Part shown: positions 7,404-21,473 of the stretch, one piece after another
Layout: every line of letters starts with the position of its first letter
Numbering within the stretch: the stretch's first letter is position 1
Origin: Pseudomonas triclosanedens
GTDB taxonomy: Bacteria > Pseudomonadota > Gammaproteobacteria > Pseudomonadales > Pseudomonadaceae
Reading direction: 5' to 3'
DNA length: 64,000 nt
Assembly: GCF_026686735.1 (NCBI RefSeq)
Contig: NZ_CP113432.1
Span: 2,170,001-2,234,000 of the forward strand
Made by a program: the position numbers and the translations under genes
The notes under the pieces: generated by a model
The model's input: the letters and a program-made list of their open reading frames with translations, nothing else
What the model was told of the DNA's origin: nothing
The model's database searches: none

Positions 7404-7727
7404 ATGAATCATCTACCGAAGACCCTGCCGGTGCTGGCGGCGATTGCCATGCTGTCTGGCTGCATGAGCGACCAGGAATTCCTCGCCTCCAACCAGCAGG
7501 CCGCTATCAACGCCACCGAGTCGCGGGCCAAGTTCGAGCTGAACTGCGAGGCGGTGACCAGCAGCGTGCTGTCGAGCAAAGTCACCAGCGTGCGGCGGGC
7601 CATGCAGCGCACCGAATACACCATCGGCGTGCGTGGCTGTAACAGGCAGGCGACCTACATCACTTATTGCCTGAACCCCACTGACTGTAACGCCATCGCC
7701 AATACCGCCCGCACCAGTACGCCATGA
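7404..7727 (+). CDS. Small cysteine-containing lipoprotein, function unknown
   Basis: A 107-aa protein with a lipoprotein signal peptide: KTLPVLAAIAMLSGC gives a lipobox LSGC with lipidated Cys at about residue 20. The mature part is short and hydrophilic, with four further cysteines (NCEAV, RGCNR, YCLNPTDC) that could form two disulfides in the periplasm. The ATG at 7404 follows GGAG at normal distance. No family is recognised. It diverges from the LysR gene, sharing a 195-bp control region. Confidence 0.7.
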   Translation: MNHLPKTLPVLAAIAMLSGCMSDQEFLASNQQAAINATESRAKFELNCEAVTSSVLSSKVTSVRRAMQRTEYTIGVRGCNRQATYITYCLNPTDCNAIANTARTSTP

Positions 7728-8034: not shown

Positions 8035-9522
8035 TCAGCGGCGATGGAGCTTCCAGGCGTCGCCCGCCGGCGCGTTGCCCTTGTCGTAGGGGCGGAAGAG
8101 GGTCATGTAGAGCAGCCCCACGACGATGACGATGGTGCCCACCAGGATAATCCCGTAATTGATGTACCACGGAGCATCCGGGGTACGAGGCCAGGACATG
8201 TTGACGATCGCCAGCACGCCGTAGATTTGTGCAGCGATGTTCACCGGCCAACCCCACTTGCCGAGGGTGAAGGAGCCGCTGGGCTTCCAGCCGCGCAGCC
8301 GGGCGAACAGTGCGGCACCGACGATCATCTGGAAGGCGAGGTAGATGCCGATGGCGGCGAAGCTGACCACGGTGCCGATGGCGTTCTGCATATAGAGGCC
8401 GAGGCAGACGATGGCGCTCGGAATCACGCCGCAAGTCACCAACGCGGCGGTTGGTACGTGGGTGTTGGGCGACAGGCGTTGCAGCAGGCGGCTGCCCATC
8501 ACCATCTCGTCGCGGGCATAGGAGTACAGCAGGCGGCTGGCGGCGGCTTGCAGACTGAGCACGCAGGAAACAAAGGAGACCAGGATCACCAGCATCACCA
8601 GGCGAGCGCCAGTCGGGCCGAAGGCGCTGCCGAGGATAGTGCTCATCGGATCCTTGTCGGTACCGGAAATCACCGCCTGCATGTCCGGCACGGCGAGGAT
8701 CAGCGCCAGCGCGGCAAACATCGATGCGCCACCGCCGATCCAGATGGTCATGCGCATGGCCTTGGGAATGCGCTTGCTCGGGTTTGGAGTTTCCTCCGCG
8801 ACGTCACCGCAGGCCTCGAAGCCGTAGTACAGGAACATGCCGGCCAGGGAGGCGGTGAGGAACGCCGGCCAGTAGGCGCCATCGATGCGGATATCGAAGG
8901 TATTGAACAGCACTGAAAGCGGTTGGTGGCGTTCGAAGATCAGCAGGTAGCCACCGATCACGATGGCGCCGATCAACTCGCAGAGGAAGCCGAACATCGC
9001 AACCCTTGCCAGCAGCTTGGTGCCGCTGAGGTTGAGTAGGGTGGCAATCAGGGTCAGTGACAGGCCTATCACGGTATTGGTCACCGGGTTTGCCTCGAAC
9101 CCGAGCAGCGTAGCTACGTACGGGCCGGCGCCCAGGGCCACCGCGGCAATGGTCACGCACAGCGAGACCGAGCAGATCCAGCCGACCATCCACGCCCAGC
9201 GCTTGCCTACCAGGCGTCGTGCCCATGGATAGACACCACCGGAAATCGGGAACTGCGAGACCACTTCGCAGAAAATCAGACACACCAGCATCTGTCCCAG
9301 GCCGACCAGCAGGTAAGACCAGAACATCGGTGGGCCACCAGCGGCCAGGCACAGACCAAAGATGCTGTACACGCCTACGACCGGCGAAAGATAGGTGAAG
9401 CCCAGGGCGAAGTTCTGCCACAGACTCATGCTGCGCTCGAAGTTGGAGGTGTAGCCCAGCGCGCGGAGCTGTTCCGCGTCGCGGTCGACCGGGAGGAGGC
9501 CGGGTTGGATCGGACTGTTCAT
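8035..9522 (-). CDS. APC-superfamily amino-acid/amine permease
   Basis: A 495-aa inner-membrane transporter with about 12 hydrophobic helices. The APC consensus is clear: LWQNFALGFTYLSPVVGVYS in helix 1, FCEVVSQFPISGGVYPWAR in helices 2-3 and the loop FEACGDVAEETPNPSKRIPK. It imports an amino acid or amine with cation coupling; this subfamily includes GABA/choline-type permeases. The start at 9522 (MNSPIQPGLLPVDRDAEQLR) is preferred over a longer frame to 9672. It is the last minus-strand gene of the putative amine-catabolic island and has its own AT-rich promoter region, so it is the likely uptake component. Confidence 0.9.
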   Translation of the reverse strand: MNSPIQPGLLPVDRDAEQLRALGYTSNFERSMSLWQNFALGFTYLSPVVGVYSIFGLCLAAGGPPMFWSYLLVGLGQMLVCLIFCEVVSQFPISGGVYPWARRLVGKRWAWMVGWICSVSLCVTIAAVALGAGPYVATLLGFEANPVTNTVIGLSLTLIATLLNLSGTKLLARVAMFGFLCELIGAIVIGGYLLIFERHQPLSVLFNTFDIRIDGAYWPAFLTASLAGMFLYYGFEACGDVAEETPNPSKRIPKAMRMTIWIGGGASMFAALALILAVPDMQAVISGTDKDPMSTILGSAFGPTGARLVMLVILVSFVSCVLSLQAAASRLLYSYARDEMVMGSRLLQRLSPNTHVPTAALVTCGVIPSAIVCLGLYMQNAIGTVVSFAAIGIYLAFQMIVGAALFARLRGWKPSGSFTLGKWGWPVNIAAQIYGVLAIVNMSWPRTPDAPWYINYGIILVGTIVIVVGLLYMTLFRPYDKGNAPAGDAWKLHRR

Positions 9523-9885
9523 CTTTATTGTTCCTGTTTGGCTATGCACGTGGCATCGAACAGATGGATCTGGACTTGGCGGGCCGCTGCGCACGGGGTA
9601 TGGCGATAGCGGTGGAGACCGTGGCGGCCAGTTCAGGGGTAACAGCTTTGGCCGCCGGAAGAGAGCAAGCACAGCTCATGCCATATTAAATATGATTTAA
9701 AATGTTTAAGGCGTAGCCGGGGAGCTGCCATTGCCTCTGCAGGGACGAGCGCGAGCTAGAGCGGTTGCATTGGCGGCAGCAGTTGCTGGTCAAGCGCACC
9801 GGCAAGTGACGCGGTGCTTCGAGAGGCGACCAAAACTGGGGCAGGGTAACGCCCGGCTGCTCCCATAGGGAGCAGCCGGGCGCAT
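9523..9885. promoter_or_regulatory. Promoter region of the permease gene with an AT-rich palindrome
   Basis: A 363-bp gene-free stretch in which 9680-9710 is strikingly AT-rich and contains the perfect palindrome CATATT-A-AATATG at 9682-9694, followed by GATTTAAAATG. An AATATGAT element also occurs in the P450/GATase divergent region near 17614. A GntR-type repressor encoded nearby could bind here; this is inference. The left end holds the hairpin listed separately. Confidence 0.45.
9850..9882 (-). terminator. Strong hairpin after the dCache gene
   Basis: A perfect 15-bp inverted repeat, CGCCCGGCTGCTCCC and its complement with loop ATA, sits 3 bp after the dCache stop codon. The minus-strand side lacks a good T-tract, so it may stabilise the 3' end rather than be a classical terminator. 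Confidence 0.55.
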
Positions 9886-10629
9886 TCAGGCTGCGCGGCG
9901 GCGTTTGTCCGGCAACTGCACCAGGGTCCAGTGGGCGGATTGCTCGGCCAGCGGAGCATGCTGGCAGCGGGCGTCGGCGGCGAAGCCGGCGCTGGCCATT
10001 TCGCCGGCGATGAAGTTGGCAGTATTGGCCGCCACCACGCGGCCTTCGCCGCTAAGGATCAGCGCCTCGTGCTGCAGGTGCATGAGTTTGGCGGTGACTA
10101 CCCGTTCGAAGCGATTGAGGGCGATATCGGCGGCAGCCATGCCGATGAAATGGCCATCCACCAGGATCGGGCTGGAAAAGGTCAGGATGTACATGTCCTG
10201 GCCGTAGAGGTCGACATAGGGGCCGACCACGCTGCTGCGCCCGCTGTCTCGCGGGGTGGCGAACCAGGGCATGTCTCGGTAGTCGTAGAAATTCTCGCAG
10301 CGCCGGTTGAAGTTCAGGCTCAGCGGCACGGCTCTTCCGCCGCTGCCGAGCTGGCGCCACTCCAGGTACATCTCGCGGTCCTGCAGCACGCCCGGTTGCA
10401 GGACCACGCCGCATCCCTGCAGGCAAGAGTCGCGCTGGGTCAGGCAGGTTTCGATGAGCGGTCTCAGGCTTGCCAGATCCGCCGACGAGACCGGCTTGCC
10501 GTCGGTCTTGCGCCAGGTGCGATCAATGGCCTCGGCAAGGGTCCCGATCTGGGCAAAAATGTTACTGATTGAAACATCGATGCGCTGGGCGCACTCGTTC
10601 AGTTCGTCGATGCATTGTGCGCTTGCCAT
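9886..10629 (-). CDS. Stand-alone soluble dCache (PDC) sensor-domain protein
   Basis: A 247-aa protein with a dCache/PDC-like ligand-binding core at about residues 65-200: YLEWRQ, NFYDYRDMPWFATPRDSGRS, VGPYVDLYGQDMYILTFSSP and FIGMAAADIALNRFE. No signal peptide, membrane helix or output domain is visible. That is unusual, because Cache domains are normally extracellular parts of chemoreceptors or kinases. It lies directly behind the GntR gene on the same strand (111-bp gap). In the amine context it may sense the substrate in the cytoplasm or influence the regulator (inference). The start at 10629 has a GAGAGT-like site. Confidence 0.75.
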   Translation of the reverse strand: MASAQCIDELNECAQRIDVSISNIFAQIGTLAEAIDRTWRKTDGKPVSSADLASLRPLIETCLTQRDSCLQGCGVVLQPGVLQDREMYLEWRQLGSGGRAVPLSLNFNRRCENFYDYRDMPWFATPRDSGRSSVVGPYVDLYGQDMYILTFSSPILVDGHFIGMAAADIALNRFERVVTAKLMHLQHEALILSGEGRVVAANTANFIAGEMASAGFAADARCQHAPLAEQSAHWTLVQLPDKRRRAA

Positions 10630-10740
10630 GGTTTGGACTCTCTTATTCTACGGGCTGGTACTGCGGGGCAGCGCCTCTGTTAGATAAAAATTCTAAAGCA
10701 GAGGTTTGTTGTCCAAAAAAGCGGGCAAGTGCTGTGCCAA

Positions 10741-11490
10741 CTAGGCCTTTTCTTCTGCAAGGAGTTCCAGCTTCATGTCGATCAGTCGCTTGATGCCGCG
10801 GCTCACTTGGGCCTCGACCATAGCTCCGGCCAGGTTCGGATCGCCGGCGACTATGGCTTCACGGATCGCCATGTGTTCCTGCTGAATGCTTTCCACGCTG
10901 GGTGCGCCGGGCACCGGCAGCCAGAGTAGTTCGCCGATCTCGGCCTGCAGACGAATTTCCGCGCGGGTCAGTCGGACCGACTGCGAGGCCACGGCGATCT
11001 CGATGTGGAAGCGCGCGTCGGCGCGGCGGCGCTCGTGGCGGCTACTGGCCTTGCCCAGGGCTTCGATATATTGCGCCAGGTGCTGGTGGTGTTCGCGCGA
11101 AGCGCGCTTGGCGGCCAGTCGAGCGGCGGTGCCGGAAATGGCGATGTGCTCGTCGCAGAGGTCGCGCAGGTCGATGGTGCTCAGCTCGTCGAGGCGACTG
11201 AGGACGATCTCCGAGGGAATTTCTTCGATGGTACGGATGAAGCTGCCGCCGTTGCGTCCGCGGCGGGTCTCGATGACGCCGCGCTGGCGCAGGTAGGCCA
11301 GGGCTTCGCGCAGAGTCACAGTGGCGACGCCGAACTGCATGGCCAGTTCTGTCTCGCTGGGTAGCTGCTGGCCTTCGGCGAACAGGCCGAGGTCGATAGC
11401 GTCCATCAGCCGACGCACGACTTCTTCGGTACGCCCCTCCTGACGGAGGCGAATGAACGGGCCGGGTGCGGTGGGTGAGGATCCATTCAT
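10741..11490 (-). CDS. GntR-family regulator with FCD domain
   Basis: A 249-aa FadR-subfamily regulator. The N-terminal winged HTH at about residues 15-80 shows EEVVRRLMDAIDLGLFAEGQ and QLPSETELAMQFGVATVTLR. The FCD ligand domain at about 105-235 contains D/H metal-ligand-like positions (ARFHIEIAVAS, then EHMAIREAIVAGD). It sits in the middle of the putative amine-catabolic cluster between the dCache gene and the binding-protein gene, so it probably represses the cluster and is released by an intermediate. AT-rich DNA upstream (about 11574-11592) is a possible autoregulatory site. Start at 11490 chosen for family length. Confidence 0.88.
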   Translation of the reverse strand: MNGSSPTAPGPFIRLRQEGRTEEVVRRLMDAIDLGLFAEGQQLPSETELAMQFGVATVTLREALAYLRQRGVIETRRGRNGGSFIRTIEEIPSEIVLSRLDELSTIDLRDLCDEHIAISGTAARLAAKRASREHHQHLAQYIEALGKASSRHERRRADARFHIEIAVASQSVRLTRAEIRLQAEIGELLWLPVPGAPSVESIQQEHMAIREAIVAGDPNLAGAMVEAQVSRGIKRLIDMKLELLAEEKA

Positions 11491-11641
11491 GTTGCGGTGG
11501 GGCCTCGGCGTGGGGCTGGCGCCGGTGGCCGAACTCCTTTTAGGGGCCGTAGGTTGGGGGCTGACGCAGTATAACCTCATCCTTAGATTTTAATGTCGAA
11601 ATGGACCGCCCCGTGGGGCGGTCCAGATGTCGCAGGCGTGC

Positions 11642-12334
11642 TCAGAACGGGTAGGCCAGGCTCGGCATCCACCGCTGCCAGATGCGCTCCAGCTCGCCGT
11701 TGGCCTTCATTGCGGCCAGGGCACTGTCCACTTCGTCGAGCCAGGAACGGTTGCGGAGCTTGACTGCGATGCCCCAGCGGTTGCCCGTGGGAACGGTGAA
11801 GCCAATGGCCAGGTCAGGCTCCTCGGCGAGCGGTACCAGCGCGACATCGTCATCCACCAGAGCGTCGATGCGGCCGTCGCGCAGGGCCTGGACCATGTCT
11901 CCGAGCACGTCGTCGGTGTCACCGCCGAAGGGCACGGTGATACAGCCCTCGAAGGTCTCCGCCAGGGCCATGTTGAGGCTGTTGGCGATCGCCCCGACCT
12001 TTTTCCCGATCAGGTCCGTCGGGCTGCGCACCAGGCTGCCGCGCAGCACCATCACCGCTTCGTCGAACACCGCGTAGGGCGCGGTGAAATCGGCGAGGGT
12101 CAGACGGTAGTTGGAGATACCCTGACCGCAGAGCAGCAGGTCGCCGTCGCCGGCCTCCAGCGCGGGGTAGAAGTCCGCCCAGTTGCGGTAGACGAACTCC
12201 ACCTCGCGGCCCAGGTGCGCCGCCAGGGCGCGCGCAACATCGGACTCGTAGCCGTGGCGGTAGCCATCGGCGTCCTTGTGGAACAGCGGCGGGGCCGGCA
12301 GGTCGGCGCAGATAACGCGCAATACGCGGCTCAT
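11642..12334 (-). CDS. Family 3 solute-binding fold protein lacking a signal peptide
   Basis: A 230-aa protein with the SBP_bac_3 (PBPb) fold from the first residues: VLRVICADLPAPP, ALAAHLGREVEFVYRNWADF, LIGKKVGAIANSLNMALAE and WGIAVKLRNRSWLDEVDSAL. Relatives are periplasmic receptors, but no signal peptide is present. The start at 12334 overlaps the ligase stop by 4 bp (ATGA), so translation is coupled and there is no room for an export sequence; upstream in-frame residues are not hydrophobic either. A cytoplasmic ligand-binding or enzymatic (cyclohexadienyl-dehydratase-like) role is possible. No ABC permease genes are nearby. Confidence 0.8.
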   Translation of the reverse strand: MSRVLRVICADLPAPPLFHKDADGYRHGYESDVARALAAHLGREVEFVYRNWADFYPALEAGDGDLLLCGQGISNYRLTLADFTAPYAVFDEAVMVLRGSLVRSPTDLIGKKVGAIANSLNMALAETFEGCITVPFGGDTDDVLGDMVQALRDGRIDALVDDDVALVPLAEEPDLAIGFTVPTGNRWGIAVKLRNRSWLDEVDSALAAMKANGELERIWQRWMPSLAYPF

Positions 12335-13704
12335 GGCAGGTAGTCCATGTACATTTTGCTTTCCCATTCGGTGACGACGGAGCAATAGCGCGCCCATTCG
12401 TCGGCCTTGAGGTCGCGGTACAGCTCAGCCATCGTCGGCGGCAGCGCACCACGTACTACAGCGTCTTGGTCGAAGGCCTGCACGGCCTCGCCCAGAGTCA
12501 TCGGCATGCGCACGTTCTCGCGGGCGGCAGGGATGCTGTCGCTGTTGTCCGGCGCGCCCGGATCGGTGCGGTTGACCAGGCCGTCGCGGATGCCGGCCAG
12601 CAGCAGGGTGTGCGACAGGTAGGGGTTCACGCTGGCATCGGGCAGCTTGTATTCCAGACGGCCGTTGGCCGACAGGCGCACGGTGCAGGTCTTGTTGTCC
12701 ATACCCCAGTTCAGGCGGTTGGGGGCGAACAGGCCGGCGTCCCAGAAGCGCTTGTAGGAGTTCACCGTGGAAGCCATCACCAGCATCGAGCCGGGGGCGT
12801 GGGCCAGCAGGCCACCCAGGGCATGGCGGCCGGTCTCGGTCAGGTGCAGTTCGCGGCGGCCGGGTTCGGACAGCACGTTCTGCTCGCCGCGCCAGAGGCT
12901 GAAGTTGTGGTGGCAGCCGCTGCCCATGCTGCCGGTGGTGGGCTTGGGCATGAAGCTGGCGCGTACACCGAATTCGTTGGCGACCTGACGGCAGATCAGA
13001 CGGTAGGTCACCAAGCGGTCGGCGGTGAGATGGCAGTCGTCGAACATCCAGTTCAGCTCCAACTGGCCTGGGTCTTCGTAGTCGCCCTCGATCATGTCCA
13101 GACCCATGGCGCCGGCGTACTGCATCACGCGCTGGAAGATCGGCCGCATGGTCTCCAGGTTGCCCAGGTGATAGGCCGGGCTGGCGCCGGGACGCACCTT
13201 GACCTCCAGCTTGTCCCCGAACCAGGTCATCTCCGGCTCGCAGCCGGTCTTCAGGCTCAGCCCGGTATCGGCGTGGAATGCCTTGTGGCTGTCGATCAGC
13301 AGGCCGCGGGCGTCGGTGGCGAGAACCTGGCCGGCGACTTCCGGGCGATGATCGGGTTCGTACAGGCGGCAGAAGAAACTGCCGATGGATTTGTCCCACG
13401 GCAGCACGTTGAAGCTGCTCACGTCAGGAATGGCGGTGAACTCGGCGGCCTGGGCGCCGCCACCGAGCAGTACGCCGGCGCGGGTGCTCTGCAGGTCGGA
13501 GAGCGCGGTGCGGTGGAACTGCACACCCTTCTCCAGGTTGCGCAGCAGGTGCTTGGCCGGGACCACCTTGGCCAGCACGCGGCCGCTGAGGGTGACCACC
13601 TGGTAGTACAGGTATTCCACGCCGGAATCGCGGATGCGCGCGGCGAGTTCCTGGGCGACGGCGGAGCTGGTGTTGTATTCCTTGTGTAGATCGAGCGCTG
13701 TCAT
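12331..13704 (-). CDS. glnT: Type III glutamine-synthetase-like ligase (GlnT/gamma-glutamylamide synthetase-like)
   Basis: A 457-aa GS-fold ligase. It has a beta-grasp at about residues 25-110 and a catalytic domain with CEPEMTW (E156, E158), EGDYEDPGQLELNW, the ATP/glutamate loop KPTTGSMGSGCHHNFSLW (254-271), NRLNWGMDNKT and the LEYKLPDASVNPYL segment. Type III GS relatives join glutamate to ammonia or to an amine, as in methylamine, isopropylamine and aniline pathways. Genetic linkage to a P450 system and two amidotransferases suggests a gamma-glutamylamide synthetase acting on an exogenous amine rather than housekeeping nitrogen assimilation. The symbol follows automatic naming; substrate unproven. 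It is preceded by an AT-rich promoter region and overlaps the next gene by 4 bp. Confidence 0.85.
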   Translation of the reverse strand: MTALDLHKEYNTSSAVAQELAARIRDSGVEYLYYQVVTLSGRVLAKVVPAKHLLRNLEKGVQFHRTALSDLQSTRAGVLLGGGAQAAEFTAIPDVSSFNVLPWDKSIGSFFCRLYEPDHRPEVAGQVLATDARGLLIDSHKAFHADTGLSLKTGCEPEMTWFGDKLEVKVRPGASPAYHLGNLETMRPIFQRVMQYAGAMGLDMIEGDYEDPGQLELNWMFDDCHLTADRLVTYRLICRQVANEFGVRASFMPKPTTGSMGSGCHHNFSLWRGEQNVLSEPGRRELHLTETGRHALGGLLAHAPGSMLVMASTVNSYKRFWDAGLFAPNRLNWGMDNKTCTVRLSANGRLEYKLPDASVNPYLSHTLLLAGIRDGLVNRTDPGAPDNSDSIPAARENVRMPMTLGEAVQAFDQDAVVRGALPPTMAELYRDLKADEWARYCSVVTEWESKMYMDYLP

Positions 13705-13840
13705 GTTGTGGTACTCCTCGGGCAGCGGCAGGCAAGGCGCGCTGCGGTAGGGTGGGATGATTATAGATATAAGCTATGTTTTTATATGTTTTTATTCGAA
13801 AAACAGATCTCCCCTACAAGTCCCAGGCGGCTTGGAAAGT
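13705..13840 (-). promoter_or_regulatory. AT-rich promoter/operator region of the ligase operon
   Basis: Between the amidotransferase stop and the ligase ATG lies an island of AT-rich DNA at about 13755-13800 with TTATAGATATAAGCTAT and TTTTTATATG, in a genome otherwise about two-thirds GC. ATAG...CTAT forms a short dyad. This is likely the promoter and operator for the ligase/binding-protein pair. It shows the four-gene P450 unit is probably a separate transcript. Confidence 0.5.
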
Positions 13841-14545
13841 TCAGGCCGGATGGCTGTGTTCGCGGAAGAAGCCCGCCGCCCAGTGGGCGACCTGGGTGTT
13901 GTCCGGGGTCAGCCGCTGCAGCGATTCGCCAGCGCGGGCGGTTACGTCGGCGGGTAACAGGCCGTTGCCGTAGCGATCCAGCAGCGCGGCCACGTAGTCG
14001 TGGGTGAACTCCGGGTGGAACTGTACCGAGCGCGCCGGGAAGGCGTACTCCAGCACGCCGTGCGGGCAGTGGGCGGAGCCGCCGACCACCCGTGCCTCGG
14101 GCGGCAGGCTGCTGACCTGGTCCTGGTGAAACACCAGGGTCGGGGCATCCTCCAGGCCTTGGGCGGCATAATGGTAGGCTTGTGCGCCGACGCCCCAGCC
14201 CGCCTCGGCGCGGGTCGTGCGGCCGCCATAGGCATCAGCCATGATCTGGTGACCGAAGCAGATGCCGAACACAGGCTTGCGCAGGCTCCGCAGCCGACGC
14301 AGGAAGGTAATCTGGCGCAGCATCCAGGGGCTGTGCTCATAGCAGCTGTGGCGCGAGCCGGTGAGCAGGTAGCCATCGAAGGCTTCGGCGTCGGGCAGGG
14401 TTTCTCCGTTCACCGCCGAGACATAGGTGAAGCGCGCCTCGGGCAGGGCCGGGGCCAGCCAGCGTTCGATCATTGCCGGGTAGCTGCCGAAGCGCTCCTG
14501 CAGTGGTTCGGGGACCAGGCCATTCTCGATGATGCACAGGCGCAT
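13841..14545 (-). CDS. Class I glutamine amidotransferase-like hydrolase (first of two)
   Basis: A 234-aa GATase1 domain protein. The nucleophile elbow PVFGICFGHQ gives C96, and ARSVQFHPEF gives H177 and E179, completing the Cys-His-Glu triad. There is no synthetase domain, so it is a free-standing hydrolase, like PuuD-type or aniline/isopropylamine-pathway enzymes that cleave gamma-glutamyl amides. It is 11 bp after the flavodoxin gene in the P450 operon, so it is likely co-expressed. I infer that it releases the hydroxylated amine from its gamma-glutamyl carrier; an alternative is a repair or detoxifying glutaminase. Confidence 0.87.
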   Translation of the reverse strand: MRLCIIENGLVPEPLQERFGSYPAMIERWLAPALPEARFTYVSAVNGETLPDAEAFDGYLLTGSRHSCYEHSPWMLRQITFLRRLRSLRKPVFGICFGHQIMADAYGGRTTRAEAGWGVGAQAYHYAAQGLEDAPTLVFHQDQVSSLPPEARVVGGSAHCPHGVLEYAFPARSVQFHPEFTHDYVAALLDRYGNGLLPADVTARAGESLQRLTPDNTQVAHWAAGFFREHSHPA

Positions 14546-14556
14546 GGCGCTCTCCT

Positions 14557-14997
14557 TCAGATCTGCCCGAGCAGGGTCTTGGCCCAGGCCAGTGCCGCGT
14601 CGCCGGGTAACTCGCCGCTGGAGGCATCGTGTTGGCCGTGTTCCCCGACCGCCACCGCGCCCAGTTCCACCAGGGCCTCGGCGATGATCTGGCTGCCACG
14701 GTTGAAGGTCTCGTAGAAGCTGTCGCCCAGGCCGAAGGTGGCAAAGCGCAGACCTGCGAGGTCCGGTCGCTGGCCGAGCAGCGCGGCGTGGAACGGCTGG
14801 GCGCTATTGGGCAACTCACCGTCACCGTAAGTGGAGCAGACGATGACGTGGAAGTCGCTGGCGTTCAGTTCCGTCGGGTCGAAGTCGGCCATGTCGCGGA
14901 CCTGCGTGGCGTAGTCGGTGCCGAAGGCATCGGCGAGGTCGTCGGCGACCATCTCGGCGTTGCCGGTCTCGGTGCCGAAGAGGATGAGAATGTTCAT
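14557..14997 (-). CDS. Flavodoxin (FMN electron carrier, probable P450 donor)
   Basis: A 146-aa flavodoxin. The FMN phosphate loop LILFGTETGNAEMVADDLA is at residues 3-21, with STYGDGELPNSAQPF and FATFGLGDSFYETFNRGS for the isoalloxazine ring. The start overlaps the reductase stop by 4 bp (ATGA). Its position directly behind the P450 and reductase genes marks it as the one-electron shuttle between NADPH reductase and P450. Most bacterial class I P450s use a ferredoxin; flavodoxin partners are rare (P450cin/cindoxin is the known precedent). Confidence 0.9.
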   Translation of the reverse strand: MNILILFGTETGNAEMVADDLADAFGTDYATQVRDMADFDPTELNASDFHVIVCSTYGDGELPNSAQPFHAALLGQRPDLAGLRFATFGLGDSFYETFNRGSQIIAEALVELGAVAVGEHGQHDASSGELPGDAALAWAKTLLGQI

Positions 14998-16274
14998 GCG
15001 GGGTTCTCCAGAGGGCTGCGGGCGATGGCGAGCATGCCGGCGCGGTCGGTAATCTTGCGGCGTACGCGCCCGGGGGCGGCGGCCTGGGTCTCGGCGTGGT
15101 CGATGCGCTTCCAGTCGGCGTAGCTCACGGCGTCGGCCAGCAGTCCGCCGGGCAGGGCGGCCAGCCCTGCGCGGCCGCTGCGTGGTGCGGTCTGCTGGTC
15201 GACGATCATGGTCTCGGCCACCAGGCGTGCATCCTGCCGGTTCTCCGGGATGGTTCCGCGTGGTCCGCGGCGCAACCAGCCGACGCAGTAGAGACCGGCG
15301 TCCAGGCGGCCCGCATCCAGGTCAACGCCTGCACCACGCAGGGCATCACGGCGCAGCGCAGCGTTGGCGGCTTCCTCGAAACCAATGGCGCTGACCAGGC
15401 TGTCCAGTTCCAGGCGCAGTTCATGGCCATCCACCCGGCGCAACTGCAGCGCCTCGACCCGGTCCTTGCCAAGGATGGCCTGCGGCGTCCAGCCGAAGCG
15501 GAACACCAGTTCGCGGCCTGTTGCCGGTTGTTCCTGGCTGGCGAGGCCGCGCAGCACCTCCAGGCGCGCCAGCTCGGTGGCGTCGGTGGACTGGTAGTGC
15601 GCAGGCGGCAAGTCCTCGACCCGCAGGCGCACACCGGCCAGCTTGCCCAGCTCGCGCAGCATCACCGGGTCGAAACGGGCCTGGGCGGCGGGCGAGCGAC
15701 CAATGATGTCGATGCGCTCCACGCCTTCGGCAAGCAGTGCGCGCAGGGCGTCGTCGGCGATGTCCGAACCCTCGAAGTCACTGGCGGACTTGGCCAGCAG
15801 GCGCAGCACATCGATAGCGACATTGCCGTTGCCGATGACCGCCACGCGGCGGCCAAGGCGCGGGGTGAAACCCTGTTCGTCGGGATGGCCGTTGAGCAGC
15901 CGGGTCAGTTGGCCGGCACCGTAGACGCCTTCCAGCGTCTCGCCCGGAATATCCAGGCGGCGATCGCCATACAGACCGGTGGCGAGCACCACCAGGTCGA
16001 AGGCCTCGCGCAGTTGCTCCAGCGACAGGTCGCGGCCTATCTCGAGATTGCCGAGAAAGTCCACGCGCTCGCGTTCGAACAGCCGCTCGAACTGCCGGCA
16101 CACCGCCTTGGTGCCCTGGTGGTCAGGGGCCACGCCATAGCGCACCAGGCCAAAGGGGGCGGGCAGACGCTCGATCATCACGATCGGCGCGTCCGCCCAC
16201 TGCTTGCGCAGGGCCTGGGCCAGATAGCAGGCCGATGGCCCACTGCCGACGATGGCGACACTGGGCGCGTTCAT
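14994..16274 (-). CDS. NADPH-dependent adrenodoxin-reductase-type flavoprotein
   Basis: A 426-aa FAD/NADPH oxidoreductase. The FAD-binding motif VAIVGSGPSACYLAQAL is at residues 6-22, and the adrenodoxin/ferredoxin-NADP reductase block GRRVAVIGNGNVAIDVLRLL binds NADPH. Other family blocks are PFGLVRYGVAPDHQGTK and LFVLATGLYGDRRLD-like strands near 105-120. It would take electrons from NADPH to the flavodoxin encoded next. Both ends overlap neighbouring genes by 4 bp (ATGA), showing tight translational coupling P450-reductase-flavodoxin. Confidence 0.9.
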   Translation of the reverse strand: MNAPSVAIVGSGPSACYLAQALRKQWADAPIVMIERLPAPFGLVRYGVAPDHQGTKAVCRQFERLFERERVDFLGNLEIGRDLSLEQLREAFDLVVLATGLYGDRRLDIPGETLEGVYGAGQLTRLLNGHPDEQGFTPRLGRRVAVIGNGNVAIDVLRLLAKSASDFEGSDIADDALRALLAEGVERIDIIGRSPAAQARFDPVMLRELGKLAGVRLRVEDLPPAHYQSTDATELARLEVLRGLASQEQPATGRELVFRFGWTPQAILGKDRVEALQLRRVDGHELRLELDSLVSAIGFEEAANAALRRDALRGAGVDLDAGRLDAGLYCVGWLRRGPRGTIPENRQDARLVAETMIVDQQTAPRSGRAGLAALPGGLLADAVSYADWKRIDHAETQAAAPGRVRRKITDRAGMLAIARSPLENPA

Positions 16275-17491
16275 TCGTCACGCACCGCGTCGAAACGGAT
16301 CGGCAGGCGAATGGCGCCGGTGTTGCCGCTGTCCGGCAGCCACTGCGACTCACCGTTGGTGACCGGGTTTTTCAGCCGTTCGGCGAGCAGCGCCAGGGCC
16401 GCGGTCATGTCGCCGCGGGCGATGAAGTGCCCGATGCAATGGTGCGCGCCGGCACCGAAACCAAAGTGCGGCAGGCGCTTGGCGGTGATGTCGAAACTGC
16501 TGTCGTCGAAGGCGCGCGGGTCGCTACCGGCGGACTGGCTGAACAGATGCAGAGTGGTGCCCTTGGCGATTGCCAGGCCCTGATACTCGAAATCCTCCAG
16601 CGCTTCGCGGGTCACCCAGGTCACGGTGGGCCGCACGCGCATCACCTCCTCGACGGCGGCGCGCGCCAGCTCCGGGTCGTCGCCCAGCAGGCGCCACTGC
16701 TCAGGGTGCTGGAGGAAGGTATCCATGGCCAGGCTCAACTGGTTTCGCGTAGTGTCGATGCCGCCGAAGATCGCCAGGACGATCATGTCGTACAGCTCCT
16801 GGTCGCTGAGGGCCTGCTTGTCTTCCTCGTTGGCGCGTACCAGGCTGCTGAGGAAGTCCTCGCCCAGGCCATTGCGCTTGAGTGCTTCCACTGCCTGGCG
16901 GGCGTATTCGAACAGCTTGTCAGTGGCGGCGTTGATCCGTGCCTCGTCGCGCTTGAAGGTCACGCCCAGAGCCAGGCCCATTTCCACCGCGAGATCGGCC
17001 AGGCCCTTCCATTCGCTGATCGGCAGGCCGAGCAGCAGGCAGATCACCTGGGTGGCGTAGGGTTCAGCGAATTCGCTGACGAACTCGCACTCACCGCGTG
17101 CGGCGAACTGCGCGATCAGATCGCCGGCCAGGCGCTGGAAGTCCGGCATCATCTGCTTCACCAGCTTGGGCGAGAAGGCCGGGTTGGCCAGGCGGCGCAG
17201 GCGCGAATGGTCGGCGCCTTCCTTGCTCAGCAGCATGCGCATCCACCAGTCGGCGAAGCTGCCGCTGGCATTGTTGTGCGCCGGCCAGGCATAGCTGCCC
17301 TGCCGCAGACGCTGATCGCGCAACAGCTTGTTCACCTCGTCGTAACGCAGCACGGCGATGCCATAGGGCGTCCGGGCGAACCAGCTGCGCTCGCGCGCTT
17401 CGCGCACCGCGGCGGAACGGATAGAGAAGTTCGGGTCGGTTACGTCCAGGTAGGGCGCATCGTCGAGACGGGTGGGAGCACTAGTAGTCAT
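16271..17491 (-). CDS. Cytochrome P450 monooxygenase
   Basis: A 406-aa soluble bacterial P450. The heme-thiolate loop PHFGFGAGAHHCIGHFIAR gives proximal C352. The I-helix oxygen groove is IFGGIDTTRNQ (GGIDTT 243-248, acid-alcohol pair D246/T247). The ExxR of helix K is E282-R285, and DHSRLRRLANPAFSP near 94-108 is the usual C-helix contact. All catalytic features are intact. A strong GGAGGTG ribosome site precedes the ATG at 17491. It is the first gene of a coupled operon with reductase, flavodoxin and amidotransferase. Substrate unknown; context argues for a gamma-glutamylated or free amine. Confidence 0.95.
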   Translation of the reverse strand: MTTSAPTRLDDAPYLDVTDPNFSIRSAAVREARERSWFARTPYGIAVLRYDEVNKLLRDQRLRQGSYAWPAHNNASGSFADWWMRMLLSKEGADHSRLRRLANPAFSPKLVKQMMPDFQRLAGDLIAQFAARGECEFVSEFAEPYATQVICLLLGLPISEWKGLADLAVEMGLALGVTFKRDEARINAATDKLFEYARQAVEALKRNGLGEDFLSSLVRANEEDKQALSDQELYDMIVLAIFGGIDTTRNQLSLAMDTFLQHPEQWRLLGDDPELARAAVEEVMRVRPTVTWVTREALEDFEYQGLAIAKGTTLHLFSQSAGSDPRAFDDSSFDITAKRLPHFGFGAGAHHCIGHFIARGDMTAALALLAERLKNPVTNGESQWLPDSGNTGAIRLPIRFDAVRDE

Positions 17492-17778
17492 TCGAACACC
17501 TCCGGTCTTGCGCTGCCGCCTCTTGGGGCGGTGCGTTCATTGTTGTTGTGAGCGACACCGGGCGATGCCGCCGTCCGCCGTTGGTGGGCAGCGGGGGATG
17601 GATTTAAATTTAAAATATGATCTTATAGTTTTCAACAGGCTTTTTTCGTCCCTGGGTACCTTTCAGGGGGTGTGGGCTGTCGGGAACAGGAGGGGCAAAC
17701 CCAGCACCCACGCGGTTTTCGAAGGCATCAGCAGGTCGAATAAATAGCCTGTTTCAAAATCTTTTTTGGAGGAAAAGC
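17492..17778. promoter_or_regulatory. Divergent promoter region between P450 operon and second GATase
   Basis: A 287-bp control region. At 17600-17640 it turns AT-rich (TTTAAATTTAAAATATGATC, then TTATAG), with the motif AATATGAT seen also upstream of the permease gene. The right end carries TTTTTTGGAGGAAAAGC, an excellent ribosome site for the ATG at 17779. Likely shared binding site for the cluster's GntR regulator (inference). Confidence 0.5.
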
Positions 17779-18459
17779 ATGAAAGCATCCCGCGCCATCG
17801 CCGTGGTGCACGACGTCGGCGACGTTGCCGGTTGTCTGCCGCCGTTGTTCGCCGAGCAGGGTATTGACCTGGAATTGCGCTGCGTGGACGCCGGCCTGCC
17901 GGATCCGGCAAGCCTGGAGTTATTGCTGGTGCTGGGCAGCCCGGAGTCGGCCTACGATCATCGGGTGCCCTGGTTGGCCGGCGAACTGGCCTGGCTGAAG
18001 GCCGTGCAACTGCGCGGCGTGCCGACTCTGGGTATCTGCTTTGGCAGCCAACTGCTGGCTCGCGCGCTGGGTGGCGAGGTGTACCGTAATCGTGAGGCGG
18101 AAATCGGCTGGACCACCCTCGACACCCCGCACGCCGACTGGTCGCTGAAAGGCCCCTGGCTGAACTTCCACTTCGATGCCTTCACTCCACCGCCGGGCTC
18201 CACTCTGCTGGGCAGCACCGACCTGGCCGCGCAGGCCTATCGTCATGGCCGCAGCCTGGGCGTGCAGTTCCACCCGGAAATCGACACGGCGATGTTCGAT
18301 ACCTGGATCGCCTACTGGCAGCGTAGCGAAGAGGGGCGACGCTTCATGGCCGAGGCGGGCGACCTGCCGGAGCGCATCCGCGCCCAGATTGCCGAGCGCG
18401 AGCGGGCCAACCAGGATAATTGCCGCGTGCTGCTGAAAGACTTCCTGGAGCGGAGTTGA
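17779..18459 (+). CDS. Class I glutamine amidotransferase-like hydrolase (second of two)
   Basis: A 226-aa GATase1 protein with complete triad: TLGICFGSQLLARALGG gives C87, and LGVQFHPEID gives H165 and E167. It differs clearly from the first amidotransferase (13841-14545), so it is not a recent duplicate. It is divergent from the P450 operon across a common AT-rich promoter region and has a near-ideal GGAGG site 8 bp before the ATG. Two such hydrolases in one cluster suggest two distinct gamma-glutamyl intermediates, or one hydrolase for product release and one for recycling. Confidence 0.87.
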   Translation: MKASRAIAVVHDVGDVAGCLPPLFAEQGIDLELRCVDAGLPDPASLELLLVLGSPESAYDHRVPWLAGELAWLKAVQLRGVPTLGICFGSQLLARALGGEVYRNREAEIGWTTLDTPHADWSLKGPWLNFHFDAFTPPPGSTLLGSTDLAAQAYRHGRSLGVQFHPEIDTAMFDTWIAYWQRSEEGRRFMAEAGDLPERIRAQIAERERANQDNCRVLLKDFLERS

Positions 18460-18734: not shown

Positions 18735-19193
18735 TCAACCTTCGGCGATCAGCTCCGGCCATTGGCGGTACGGTACCCAGAGCACGCCTTGCCAGCGCAA
18801 TACGGTCAGCGCCTGAGTTGGGCCCTTCAGGGTTTCGCGGCGGGGTTGGTGGTGGTCGTGGCGCTGTTGGTCACGCAGGGTGGGGATGACGTGTTGGGTG
18901 ATCCACTGGCGGATGCAGCGGTTTTCCGGGTGGAAGAAGTGGATCAGCGTGGCGTACAGGCCGGACTCGCTGATCAGCAGTTCATCCACGTACTCGCCAT
19001 TGCCGTCGCGCACCCAGGCCCGGCGGTGCTGGTCGTCATCCAGGTTGCGCGCCACGCGGTCTTCCAGCACGGGAAAGCCGATCAGCTTGCCCAGGTCGTG
19101 GGCGCAGAACCAGCATTGGTCTTCCAGCAGCACGGCGCGTAGCTGGCGCCGGTGGCGGGTGAAGGTGGTGGGGATCAGGACCTCTTCAGACAT
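18735..19193 (-). CDS. Stand-alone Bro-N (phage antirepressor-like) domain protein
   Basis: A 152-aa protein with the Bro-N pattern: an N-terminal strand pair (RHRRQLRAVLLEDQCWFCAH), the DLGKLIGFPVLEDRVARNLD helix, then DELLISESGLYATLIHFFHP and WITQHVIPTLRDQQ. Bro-N domains occur in phage and baculovirus antirepressors and bind DNA or regulators. No other phage gene is adjacent, so this is either a domesticated remnant or a cargo gene beside the RAYT element. The C-terminus ends in an unusual VLWVPYRQWPELIAEG tail. Function unknown. Confidence 0.75.
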   Translation of the reverse strand: MSEEVLIPTTFTRHRRQLRAVLLEDQCWFCAHDLGKLIGFPVLEDRVARNLDDDQHRRAWVRDGNGEYVDELLISESGLYATLIHFFHPENRCIRQWITQHVIPTLRDQQRHDHHQPRRETLKGPTQALTVLRWQGVLWVPYRQWPELIAEG

Positions 19194-19385
19194 GGCGCAC
19201 CTCCGGGTTGGAGGGGGAAGAGGGCGGGTACAGCGAAGCGCCTTTGGGGCGAAGGCTGGGGGTGAAAGGCATATCCATTACCTCAATGGGTACACCGCTG
19301 CTTTCGGGAGCAGTATTGCCGCTATGTGAAGCGTTTCTTAGGCGCTGGCCGCAACGCTATTGACGGCTGGGCGCGCGGTCAACCG

Positions 19386-19418
19386 TAGGGCGCATAACTG
19401 CGAAGCAGTTATGCGCCA
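19386..19418. repeat. REP-like hairpin 1 (5' GTAG foot)
   Basis: GTAG immediately precedes a perfect 13-bp stem, GGCGCATAACTGC / GCAGTTATGCGCC, with loop GAA. It lies downstream of the RAYT gene. Confidence 0.85.
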
Positions 19419-19463
19419 ATCTGCTTGCCGTCGCGCTGTAGCTGAGGTGTGCATAAGCACTTC

Positions 19464-19496
19464 GGCGGATAACGCTTCGCGTTATTCGCCCTACGG
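19464..19496. repeat. REP-like hairpin 2 (inverted orientation)
   Basis: GGCGGATAACGC, loop TTC, GCGTTATTCGCC followed by CTAC. The CTAC is the complement of the GTAG foot, so this copy is inverted relative to hairpin 1 and the two make a BIME-like pair. Confidence 0.85.
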
Positions 19497-19525
19497 GTGG
19501 GCCGAGCCTCGGAGTTTGCATTGGC

Positions 19526-19558
19526 GTAGGGCGCATAACTGCGCAGCAGTTATCCGCC
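19526..19558. repeat. REP-like hairpin 3 (5' GTAG foot)
   Basis: GTAG, then GGCGCATAACTGC, loop GCA, GCAGTTATCCGCC. Same orientation as hairpin 1; ends just before the RAYT stop codon. Confidence 0.85.
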
Positions 19559-19565
19559 ATCGACC

Positions 19566-20099
19566 TCACCGCCGCTCCGCCGCCCGCACATCCAGCGACA
19601 CATCACCCGCCCAATCTTCGGTGTAAATGCCATCGGCAACCGCCCGGCGAAAGGTGGAATACGGCCAATCCTTCACCGCCGTCACCCATCCATGTTTCAC
19701 CGGGTTGATGTGGATGTAGTCGAAGTGCCGCTGGTAGTCCGTTTCATCACGGATCAGATGTTCCCAATAGCGCGGCTGCCAGATGCCGCGCTCTCCGCGC
19801 ATCTGTTGCTCGATGCTCCGCGGCTCTCCATGAGGAATGCGCCGCGCGAAACCGGATTTGATGACCTTCCACCGCGTGGCGAAATCGGCGTCGCCCGGTG
19901 GCAGCGTCCACAGGCAGTGCATGTGTTCGGGCAGCACGACCCAAGCATCGATCTGGAAAGGGTGATTGCGTTTGGTCTGGGCGATGATGCGGCGCAGCAG
20001 ATTGACTTCCTGGGTGAGGAGGCTGGAGCGGCGGTCACGTAGCGTGACCGTGAAGAAGTAGGTGCCACCCTGCACCCAGGCGCGTCGGTAGTTTGGCAT
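19566..20099 (-). mobile_element. REP-associated tyrosine transposase (RAYT, Y1/IS200-like)
   Basis: A 177-aa Y1-transposase-fold protein. The HUH-type metal motif is visible in VVLPEHMHCLWTLP (H-x-H), and the catalytic-helix region is YWEHLIRDETDYQRHFDYIH, where a tyrosine is expected. The first residues MPNYRRAWVQGGTYFFTVTL are the standard RAYT start. RAYTs are single-copy domesticated relatives of IS200/IS605 transposases that process REP hairpins with a GTAG foot. Three such hairpins lie immediately downstream, one lies upstream at 20148 and two more lie at 61466-61547, which fits this gene as their driver. Confidence 0.92.
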
Positions 20100-20147
20100 T
20101 GGGCCCCTCCGAGTTCGGTTGGAGACTGAAGGGTACCCTAAGGATTC

Positions 20148-20178
20148 GGCGGATAACGCGGGGCGTTATTCGCCCTAC
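20148..20178. repeat. REP-like hairpin 4 upstream of the RAYT gene
   Basis: GGCGGATAACGC, loop GGG, GCGTTATTCGCCCTAC. Same inverted orientation as hairpin 2, so the RAYT gene is bracketed by oppositely oriented elements. Confidence 0.85.
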
Positions 20179-20260
20179 ACAAATTTCAGCTACGGCGTAG
20201 GAGTTTGGGATCTGATGGTCCGAGCTGCTTGCTAAGTTTTAAATAGAAATTTTAATAGTA

Positions 20261-20287
20261 AAGCACATGATGATTGATCATGTGCTT
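20261..20287 (-). terminator. Terminator of the ParA-like gene
   Basis: An 11-bp perfect stem, AAGCACATGAT / ATCATGTGCTT with loop GATTG, lies 8 bp after the ParA stop. On the minus strand it continues into a TTTACTATTAAAATTT tract. Confidence 0.7.
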
Positions 20288-20294
20288 ATGAGGT

Positions 20295-21350
20295 TTAGAT
20301 GCAGTTTGATATGATATGGTCAGCTAGCTTGTCATACTCTTTGTCCATCTCGAGCATCAGATCGACTTGGTTTTGTGCCCACTTTCCTTTGGTTAGAAGT
20401 CGTGTCGGTCTGTGCTCGGGAAGGTATTTTATAGGGACGTTCTGAATTATGCTATCCGGTGCCATGACGTTAAGGTCTTCAATTAAAGCTACCGGCTCAA
20501 ATTCTCCCTTGGTAGGAGTTGCGAAGTAACTTGAGATTCCAGAAAGTGCGGGATAAAGCTTTTCTTCTACTGCCTTGCTAATAGAGATATGGTGTGCTCT
20601 ATCTGCGCCAACTTGATGTTTGACTCCAAGGGATCGCTTGGTATCGAATCCATTAAATATCCAGCCGGAAAATTTTGGTTGACCTTTGGCTGGTATAAGT
20701 GTGTCGTAACTGTTGCTGGCAAGGTAGCGCTCCTTTCCTTGTTCCCAGTCCTTGATGAAACTGGGGAGCATCTGACCGATTAGGCCAACGCAGTATGCGG
20801 AGAAAAGATCTGCTGTGCACGGGACTAGGAAGTAGTCTGAACAGTAGAGGGCAGAGCGGACAAGGGTGTTAAATGAAGGAGGGAGATCTATAAGTACATA
20901 GTCGTATTTTACTCCGCTAGTCTCTTCAGCTTTTGTGGAAATCAGATGAGGTAGCAGGAATCGATAGAGGCCGCCGCCACCAATTACATCGGTACCAACA
21001 TTCAGTGTGTCGGAGAAATTGTTTAGCCAGAAATCGCCGGGAATTACGTGAAGGGTACCGTTTTTAATTGGGCTTTTGGGCTCGGATATAAATACATTGC
21101 CCTGTTGGTTTTGTTGGATGTATGGAAGCGTGAAGGCCTTGATTGTTTTTCCGAATGGATGAGTTGAACTGGTTTCGAGAAGCTTTGAGAATTCTTCGTC
21201 ACCAAGGCATGCAATGGATAGGTTGCATTGAGGGTCGAAGTCTATTATTAAGACTTTGTTATCTTTCTCTGCTAGGGAAACGGCCGTGTTCCAAAGGATG
21301 GTGGTTTTTCCAACGCCGCCTTTGTTATTGAAAAACGATACTGTAATCAT
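20295..21350 (-). CDS. Lone ParA/MinD-family ATPase (AT-rich, probably acquired)
   Basis: A 351-aa deviant-Walker ATPase. It starts MITVSFFNNKGGVGKTTILW with the KGGVGKTT loop; Walker A' is LIIDFDPQCNLS and Walker B is YDYVLIDLPPSFN. The C-terminal 150 residues (KHQVGADRAHHISISK, GISSYFATPTKGEFEPVALI) are not a ParA family I recognise. No ParB, parS or replication gene is near, so it is not a plasmid partition unit. Base composition is visibly far more AT-rich than all neighbours, implying recent transfer. An in-frame ATG exists at 21362, but GGAGA at 5-nt spacing supports 21350. Candidate orphan accessory or defence gene; role unknown. Confidence 0.85.
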   Translation of the reverse strand: MITVSFFNNKGGVGKTTILWNTAVSLAEKDNKVLIIDFDPQCNLSIACLGDEEFSKLLETSSTHPFGKTIKAFTLPYIQQNQQGNVFISEPKSPIKNGTLHVIPGDFWLNNFSDTLNVGTDVIGGGGLYRFLLPHLISTKAEETSGVKYDYVLIDLPPSFNTLVRSALYCSDYFLVPCTADLFSAYCVGLIGQMLPSFIKDWEQGKERYLASNSYDTLIPAKGQPKFSGWIFNGFDTKRSLGVKHQVGADRAHHISISKAVEEKLYPALSGISSYFATPTKGEFEPVALIEDLNVMAPDSIIQNVPIKYLPEHRPTRLLTKGKWAQNQVDLMLEMDKEYDKLADHIISNCI

Positions 21351-21363
21351 CGGTTTCTCCATG

Positions 21364-21391
21364 AAAAAGCCCCGCACTAGGCGGGGCTTTT
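21364..21391 (-). terminator. Intrinsic terminator of nrdB, abutting the ParA start
   Basis: AAAAGCCCCGC / GGCGGGGCTTTT form a perfect stem, followed on the minus strand by TTTTTC. The parA-like ribosome site begins within a few bases, so the foreign gene was inserted right behind this terminator. Confidence 0.9.
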
Positions 21392-21473
21392 GTCTTTCTA
21401 TCACTGCCCCAAAATCCATTTCGGTCTACAGCGTTTCTAATGGTCTTGACTTGCGGTGGTGCTACTACTTCCG

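Follow-up and report, generated by a model that had tools for sequence, protein, structure and literature searches.

Why should a gene for a cytochrome P450 stand beside genes for a ligase of the glutamine synthetase (GS) fold and two proteins of the class I glutamine amidotransferase (GATase) type? This question is raised by a block of ten genes at positions 8035-18459 of a 64,000-nucleotide stretch of Pseudomonas triclosanedens DNA (hereafter the window; contig NZ_CP113432.1, positions 2,170,001 to 2,234,000). The genome consists of a single 6.25-Mb contig, and its nearest relatives among those listed are P. delhiensis and P. citronellolis. Our answer, which we regard as probable, is that the P450 with its electron chain, the amine-type ligase, and the two GATases open a small cyclic secondary amine of the piperidine or pyrrolidine type, with the ring-opened amine carried as a gamma-glutamyl conjugate. 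The features of the block, in order of coordinates, are the following.

8035..9522, minus strand: APC-type permease, predicted to take up the amine (PF13520, with AA_permease also named; 172.5 bits)
9886..10629, minus strand: dCache/PDC protein that lacks a signaling domain, predicted to sense the amine as the regulator's partner (MCP-like_PDC_1)
10741..11490, minus strand: GntR/FCD regulator, PipR-like (PF00392 and PF07729)
11642..12334, minus strand: leaderless amino-acid binding protein of the solute-binding protein (SBP) fold (SBP_bac_3)
12331..13704, minus strand: GS-fold ligase, predicted gamma-glutamyl amine ligase (Gln-synt_C, PF00120)
13771..13790, no strand: the palindrome again, with two mismatches, before the ligase gene
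13841..14545, minus strand: GAT1, first GATase-type protein (class I), predicted to hydrolyze gamma-glutamyl amides (PF00117, 66.5 bits; GICFGHQ and QFHPE)
14557..14997, minus strand: flavodoxin, predicted carrier of electrons to the P450 (Flavodoxin_1, PF00258, 100.8 bits)
14994..16274, minus strand: flavoprotein resembling FprA and adrenodoxin reductase, predicted to begin the electron chain (best PDB match FprA 1lqt, 200 bits)
16271..17491, minus strand: P450 like PipA/MorA (CYP151), predicted ring-amine hydroxylase (PF00067, heme Cys motif)
17612..17631, no strand: palindrome AAAATATG-N4-TATAGTTT, predicted operator in the gap between the P450 and GAT2 genes, no mismatches
17779..18459, plus strand: GAT2, second GATase-type protein (PF00117, 50.7 bits; GICFGSQ and QFHPE)

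Each of the ten genes is an open frame, and families were assigned by profile search. Every gene named for this 10.4-kb block in a preliminary description, made from the letters alone, was found and matched its named family. The P450, FprA-like reductase, flavodoxin, GAT1, ligase, SBP, FCD regulator, dCache, and APC permease genes form a series on the minus strand, and GAT2 stands alone on the plus strand, divergent from the P450. Shared messages are suggested, since the P450/reductase, reductase/flavodoxin, and ligase/SBP pairs overlap by 4 bases each. For the SBP gene, 12334 is the most probable start, which gives its 4-base overlap with the ligase gene, and an alternative upstream start at 12397 lies deeper within that gene; comparison with relatives gave starts of 9522 for the permease and 11490 for the regulator.

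Searches of 198 Pseudomonadaceae genomes, the present one among them, located the P450, the ligase, and the SBP in an identical set of 16; at thresholds of E <=1e-130 for the P450 and the ligase and 1e-55 for the SBP, the remaining 182 have none of these proteins. In all 16 genomes, the three genes lie within about 10 kb of each other. Chance adjacency of the P450 and the ligase is ruled out by this identical distribution. A scan of genome contigs with the P450 gave 152 relatives, from which 79 loci were kept; 57 of these (L015-L071, at least 50% identity) were analyzed, and L072-L093 (28-35% identity) were left out of the locus analysis. All neighborhood counts come from codon-model gene calls with uncertain start codons, in loci that reach no further than about 9 kb to either side of the P450. 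Among the 12 gammaproteobacterial loci, genes for the GS-fold ligase, the SBP, the reductase, and the flavodoxin occur in all 12, those for the FCD regulator and the dCache protein in 11, and that for the APC permease in 4. The 37 actinobacterial loci carry the SBP in 33 cases, the GS in 32, the APC permease in 32, the FCD regulator in 31, and the dCache protein in 31, and tblastn also revealed APC, FCD, dCache, P450, GS, and SBP neighbors common to most of them. GS and GAT1 genes are each present in four of the eight alphaproteobacterial loci, and SBP, FCD, dCache, and APC genes in none.

The P450 contains the motifs FGAGAHHCIG (at 345), GGIDTT (at 243), and EVMR (at 282). Its best PDB match is 3p3l, at 40% identity, presumably AurH, a P450 that acts on a polyketide. 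The P. delhiensis protein is 93% identical, and identity to 32 of the 37 actinobacterial P450s is 57-62%; the remaining five reach 56% (L061), 54% (L062 and L064), 50% (L065, from Gulosibacter chungangensis), and 64% over part of the length (L071). BioI/PipA of Gulosibacter are reported to be ~53 and 52% identical to PipA of Mycobacterium smegmatis and MorA of strain HE5 (PMC9477822). By this bridge through Gulosibacter and the actinobacterial loci, sequence comparison places the window P450 in the PipA/MorA family. In a homologue search with 7999 scored candidates, no named PipA or MorA appeared among the 120 matches listed. The same paper reports induction of pipA on piperidine in M. smegmatis and, with reference to Sielaff and Andreesen 2005, oxidation of free morpholine in vitro by recombinant MorA together with its ferredoxin and reductase (PMC9477822). 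The alphaproteobacterial P450s of L030, L031, L032, and L063 (63-65% identity) share a common but different neighborhood, in which no GS, SBP, or GATase gene was seen.

The ligase was aligned with 44 relatives from outside the alphaproteobacteria (12 gammaproteobacterial and 32 actinobacterial). The place of GS Asp50' is occupied by His in 43 of the 44 and by Asp in none, and the motif EGDYED..GQ.ELN keeps the equivalents of GmaS Asp177 and Glu186 in all 44; GlnA of this genome has His at the Asp177 place. In the RLE-x-R motif, the Arg is replaced by Lys in 43/44 relatives. For GmaS, PMC7948447 assigns amine deprotonation to Asp177 and the role of catalytic base to Glu186, and reports that dimethylamine, a secondary amine, is accepted. 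Judged by these residues, the active site of the ligase is of the amine type. A GS tree of 63 rows was built, in which this genome is represented by GlnA and six further GS paralogues besides the window ligase, and GmaS by two sequences; it contains no sequence named IpuC, PuuA, TdnQ, or GlnT, and several long branches meet in it. The pip-type ligases form a clade of 49 rows (support 100/100) which unites the 44 relatives, the window ligase, and one of two tandem GS from four alphaproteobacteria, and which stands apart from GlnA, the six other paralogues, and the two GmaS rows. We reject an ordinary glutamine synthetase as the reading of this gene on the strength of the loss of Asp50', the kept Asp177 equivalent, and the separate clade. 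In L026 and L028, a second, divergent GS-like gene occurs in tandem with the ligase gene.

Genes predicted to act after the ligase occur in different forms. GAT1 is found in 11 of the 12 gammaproteobacterial loci and GAT2 in all 12. A GATase cluster (c7) is present at 32 of the 37 actinobacterial loci, with at least two genes in 26, one in 6, and none in 5. The two actinobacterial GATases that were scanned, from Streptomyces brasiliensis (L033), are Peptidase_C26 proteins (159 and 137 bits), whereas GAT1 and GAT2 score higher with PF00117. Different GATase branches thus supply a pair in two lineages, which argues that removal of the glutamyl group is needed. In P. citronellolis, an aldehyde dehydrogenase (ALDH) gene lies beside GAT2 (L016:6205-7698), and the best NCBIfam model for its product is PuuC (705 bits, cut-off 850); PuuC is also the best model for the S. 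brasiliensis ALDH in L033 (605 bits, below the same cut-off). The ALDH of alphaproteobacterial L026 is matched best by betaine-aldehyde dehydrogenase (423 bits), with PuuC at 343. The genome studied here has a 90% homologue of the L016 enzyme, unlinked, at 5.27 Mb. The ALDH-type cluster c5, which mixes several ALDHs, occurs in 8/12 gammaproteobacterial, 26/37 actinobacterial, and 4/8 alphaproteobacterial loci. At window 18735-21419, the site where relatives such as L016 carry the ALDH beside GAT2, we observed a short prophage-like open reading frame, one resembling a REP-type transposase (19566-20099), and a ParA-like one (names read from the sequence); an insertion or rearrangement at this site is likely.

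Some actinobacterial loci have further neighbors. A class III aminotransferase in L061 exceeds the cut-off for 4-aminobutyrate transaminase (567 vs 506.65), and aminotransferase cluster c15 lies near 6 of the 37 loci. A family III CoA-transferase cluster (c13) is near 12/37, its L043 member being matched best by the succinate-glutarate model (335 of 750 bits), and an acyl-CoA dehydrogenase cluster is near 7/37, its L043 member scoring best with FadE (254 of 600 bits), ahead of glutaryl-CoA dehydrogenase (190 of 470). Such neighbors would fit C4 or C5 amino acid products, although they are not specific.

Electrons appear to reach this P450 family by three routes. In actinobacteria, a ferredoxin and an HcaD-like reductase are encoded (L033 scanned), with ferredoxin cluster c8 in 23/37 and reductase cluster c9 in 21/37 loci. 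In gammaproteobacteria and in Gulosibacter L065, their place is taken by a flavodoxin and an FprA-like reductase, whose genes are adjacent in 13 of 13 loci that carry both. The third version is a P450 fused to a flavodoxin-FAD-NAD reductase in a single 964-residue frame (L026:9001-11895, scanned); L028:9001-11892 resembles it by gene call only. This fusion, by its predicted domains, is a self-sufficient form of the PipA-like P450. In the window, a ferredoxin of the MorABC type with a matching reductase was not found next to the P450, and the flavoprotein-flavodoxin chain is likely to feed it instead.

The locus has a PipR-type FCD regulator gene, and at 40 of the 41 loci with both genes the regulator gene adjoins the dCache gene. 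According to PMC2018728, MSMEG_6700 is a FadR-like regulator of piperidine and pyrrolidine metabolism in M. smegmatis; this paper cites Poupin 1999, whose title names PipR, and by our own reading MSMEG_6700 and PipR are one protein. The dCache protein scores 39.4 bits with dCache_1 (below the cut-off of 45) and 38.9 with MCP-like_PDC_1 (above 27), and its nearest folds are PctD, McpU, and TlpQ. The equivalent of PctA Arg126, the carboxylate Arg, is Met in 42 of 44 dCache rows, and the Asp173 and Trp128 places are Asp and Trp in all 44 and the Tyr144 place Tyr in 42. This is the residue pattern of dCache_1AM, with the carboxylate Arg lost and the ligand Asp and aromatic positions kept.

A common palindrome (consensus AAAMTATR-N4-YATAKTTT) stands before both the P450 and the ligase gene. 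At up to 3 mismatches, the window contains two sites against 0.10 expected, a number reached in 1 of 100 shuffles; their distances from the genes that follow are 120 bases for the P450 and 66 for the ligase. Across the gammaproteobacterial loci (12 loci, 197,594 bases), 23 sites with at most 2 mismatches were found: 12 before the P450, 10 before the GS (which has a site in 10 of the 12 loci), and 1 before another gene. At the same limit, the whole genome has 6 sites vs 1 for a reversed control. Only two sites in it are perfect, the one at the P450 and one before the unlinked ALDH gene (5272605-5272624). All 12 sites with at most 1 mismatch in 8 other cluster-bearing genomes are in or beside the cluster; in four cluster-free genomes there are 4 such sites, of which 3 separate a paralogous FCD-dCache pair from an ALDH gene. 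Near most actinobacterial P450s the palindrome was not found, the best match being 13/16 in L038 and at most 11 in the others. We infer that the FCD protein binds the palindrome as its operator, and control of the unlinked ALDH by the cluster's regulator is plausible. In L024, a copy of the palindrome (7429-7448) precedes a gene of cluster c21, a putative transporter by its sequence that also occurs in L019, L020, and L029 and may replace the APC permease.

These parts can be arranged into the following route. The APC permease would take up the amine, and the P450, receiving NADPH electrons through the FprA-like protein and the flavodoxin, would hydroxylate the carbon next to nitrogen. By analogy with PipA/MorA and by general chemistry, the carbinolamine would open to an omega-aminoaldehyde in balance with a cyclic imine. 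The ligase is proposed to attach glutamate to the amine thus freed, which would keep the aldehyde from re-closing to the imine. A PuuC-like ALDH, encoded beside the cluster in relatives and at 5.27 Mb here, would then produce a gamma-glutamyl omega-amino acid, from which GAT1 and GAT2 would release glutamate and the omega-amino acid, 4-aminobutyrate or 5-aminovalerate. The FCD regulator and its dCache partner are predicted to sense the amine and to act on the common palindrome.

The preliminary description had proposed that amines are degraded as gamma-glutamyl conjugates and that a P450 carries out the oxidation, and this survives as the best reading. The ligase is not housekeeping, forming its own clade apart from GlnA and the six other paralogues (in a tree without a named GlnT), and the P450 keeps together with it in the same 16 genomes rather than being found apart from it in all relatives. 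The suggestion that the system was undescribed is half correct, since the P450 belongs with PipA/MorA, known from piperidine, pyrrolidine, and morpholine, and since the regulator shares the FadR/FCD type of PipR; the notion that no relative was known is ruled out by the actinobacterial P450 kin and the published PipA/MorA and MSMEG_6700 systems. The description also had the P450 oxidizing the already glutamylated amine, an order that we do not favor. With reasonable though modest confidence, we place the P450 first and glutamylation of the ring-opened amine second, because MorA is reported to oxidize free morpholine and because a GS is missing from five P450 loci that are long enough to show one. 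The gamma-glutamyl aminoaldehyde that results would be identical in either order. The reverse order, which we consider rather doubtful, would have the ligase convert the cyclic amine to a glutamyl tertiary amide, which would be hydroxylated by the P450 and open to the gamma-glutamyl aminoaldehyde before the ALDH and GATase act. Isopropylamine breakdown is a precedent for this order. In the 1-naphthylamine pathway, the oxygenase substrate is reported to be the glutamylated amine (PMC11335346), and GmaS accepts the secondary amine dimethylamine (PMC7948447). An Arg249 on the P450 I helix, Asn in 3p3l and invariant in 57/57 loci (other invariant residues include Trp69 and Trp292), might, to judge from sequence, hold the glutamyl carboxylate. 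Against this order stand MorA, which with ferredoxin and reductase acts on the free amine (PMC9477822), and the five long loci with no GS in reach.

Two other explanations concern the ligase and the substrate. The ligase might work as a plain glutamine synthetase and assimilate the ammonium that amine breakdown releases, without any gamma-glutamyl intermediate, and the Gulosibacter authors read a GS next to pipA-like genes as nitrogen assimilation (PMC9477822). We judge this highly improbable: Asp50', which in GlnA binds ammonium and deprotonates it, is absent in 44/44 relatives and the amine Asp177 equivalent is kept, the genome has a separate GlnA above its cut-off (860/845), and the two GATases and the PuuC-like ALDH would be left unexplained. 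The same machinery might instead serve another substrate than piperidine or pyrrolidine, be it an N-alkyl amine, one of the polyamine type, or a bigger ring such as azepane, which we think unlikely. Related P450s vary, as the polyketide-acting 3p3l illustrates. In Gulosibacter, pipA-like genes were considered for the breakdown of azepane carboxylate (PMC9477822). On the other side, the regulator, dCache protein, ligase, and P450 jointly match the pip-type actinobacterial loci, and the CoA-transferases (12/37) and aminotransferases (6/37) near those loci fit C4/C5 amino acids.

Several observations count against the pathway favored here, with oxidation before glutamylation. The gamma-glutamyl routes for 1-naphthylamine, aniline, and isopropylamine, taken as analogies, glutamylate first, and P450 Arg249 could bind a carboxylate. 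The ligase reaches no curated amine-ligase model: it scores 275 bits with TIGR03105, below the cut-off of 469.6, so that the earlier label of a type III GS stands as resemblance rather than as assignment, and 195/650 bits with GGputSyn. No ALDH gene was found within the window cluster itself, and PuuC likeness is not specific, since two ALDHs elsewhere in this genome are also PuuC-like (707 and 699 bits). GS was not seen in 9 of the 57 P450 loci; four of these are cut short (L030, L042, L044, and L056), and L031, L032, L038, L063, and L064 are long enough. Searches did not find the P450 in G009, G019, and G023 (L126, L128, and L129), yet these genomes have a PuuC-like ALDH of 94-95% identity that carries the palindrome too and stands divergent from a paralogous pair of FCD (62-65%) and dCache (58%) genes. 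The palindrome is therefore not unique to the cluster regulator, and as a sign of control by that regulator its presence at the ALDH is weakened. Near the unlinked ALDH of this genome, the palindrome is kept, but only two dCache pieces in different frames remain (L114; also L110 near 6606).

The SBP is a further unusual member of the block. Judged by hydropathy, a strongly hydrophobic N-terminal stretch was found in 0/47 SBPs, and the block's ten genes include none for an ABC transporter; the protein thus appears to lack both the signal peptide and the partner of an ABC-transporter solute-binding protein. Its cleft keeps the amino-acid Arg and Asp and has family-specific invariant Cys9 and Cys69, with Gly at the usual Ser/Thr place. 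It may be an enzyme, because of these cysteines and this glycine. In L060, L061, L066, and L038, the SBP gene follows the P450 gene rather than the ligase gene (three overlap), and L038 has the P450 and SBP with no GS in reach; a role of the SBP for the product of the P450 as well is therefore possible. As a tentative idea, to which we give less than even credence, two extracellular sensing folds may have moved inside the cell for one pathway: the soluble dCache protein would read the cyclic amine for the GntR/FCD protein as a split one-component sensor, and the SBP, made from the same message as the ligase, would hold or chemically process the reactive gamma-glutamyl aminoaldehyde.

Among known systems, the Puu pathway degrades putrescine through PuuA, PuuB, PuuC, and PuuD. 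The route proposed here would share with it the logic of a ligase, a PuuC-like ALDH (unlinked in this genome), and a GATase, by which an aminoaldehyde is kept from closing to a cyclic imine, but no PuuB-type amine oxidase was found in the block, where a P450 takes its place, and the ligase scores far below the PuuA-type model. The Ipu pathway for isopropylamine relies on gamma-glutamyl activation, with the ligase first, a non-P450 oxygenase, and a GATase-like protein. Gamma-glutamyl activation and a GATase-like protein are thus common to the window cluster, the Ipu pathway, and the aniline/1-naphthylamine pathways (the latter in PMC11335346), whereas the oxygenase there is not a P450 and acts after the ligase. 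Compared with GmaS, the window ligase likewise keeps Asp177/Glu186 and has lost Asp50', but it falls in a separate clade and has Lys for the RLE-x-R Arg. The dCache_1AM sensors PctD, McpU, and TlpQ are the nearest folds of the window's dCache protein, which differs in lacking a signaling domain and in its place beside a GntR/FCD gene.

The closest systems are PipA/PipR of M. smegmatis and MorABC of Mycobacterium sp. HE5, with which the window shares the P450 family, the FCD regulator, and a likely hydroxylation next to nitrogen; APC, dCache, ligase, and SBP genes are in common with the pip-type actinobacterial loci. It differs from PipA/MorABC in having a flavodoxin and an FprA-like reductase instead of a ferredoxin and an HcaD-like reductase, and GATases of another branch. 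As far as the literature surveyed goes, published accounts of PipA/MorA do not include a gamma-glutamyl branch, and no description of such a step in piperidine, pyrrolidine, or morpholine breakdown was found in the open-licence literature by title or abstract opening. What appears new, within our searches, is this branch of a pathway known as a P450 plus a reductase, the three electron supplies for one P450 family, the common palindrome that also precedes an unlinked ALDH gene, and the two leaderless folds of sensor type. The amines concerned (piperidine, pyrrolidine, and morpholine) are widespread in industry and in plants. If the proposal is true, the present picture of their breakdown misses half its chemistry, a glutamate tag that tames an aminoaldehyde; the ligase that accompanies PipA-type P450s in mycobacteria, streptomycetes, and pseudomonads, so far given little attention, would gain a function, Pseudomonas a candidate for ring-amine oxidation, PipA-type P450s natural flavodoxin-fed and reductase-fused versions, and two leaderless sensor folds a testable job. 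The P450-ligase pairing also occurs in mycobacteria and streptomycetes, where the glutamate-tagging step seems to have been overlooked. Taken together, these comparisons make a strong genomic case that the window cluster encodes a variant of the ring-amine pathway known from PipA and MorA, one in which a gamma-glutamyl branch has been overlooked.

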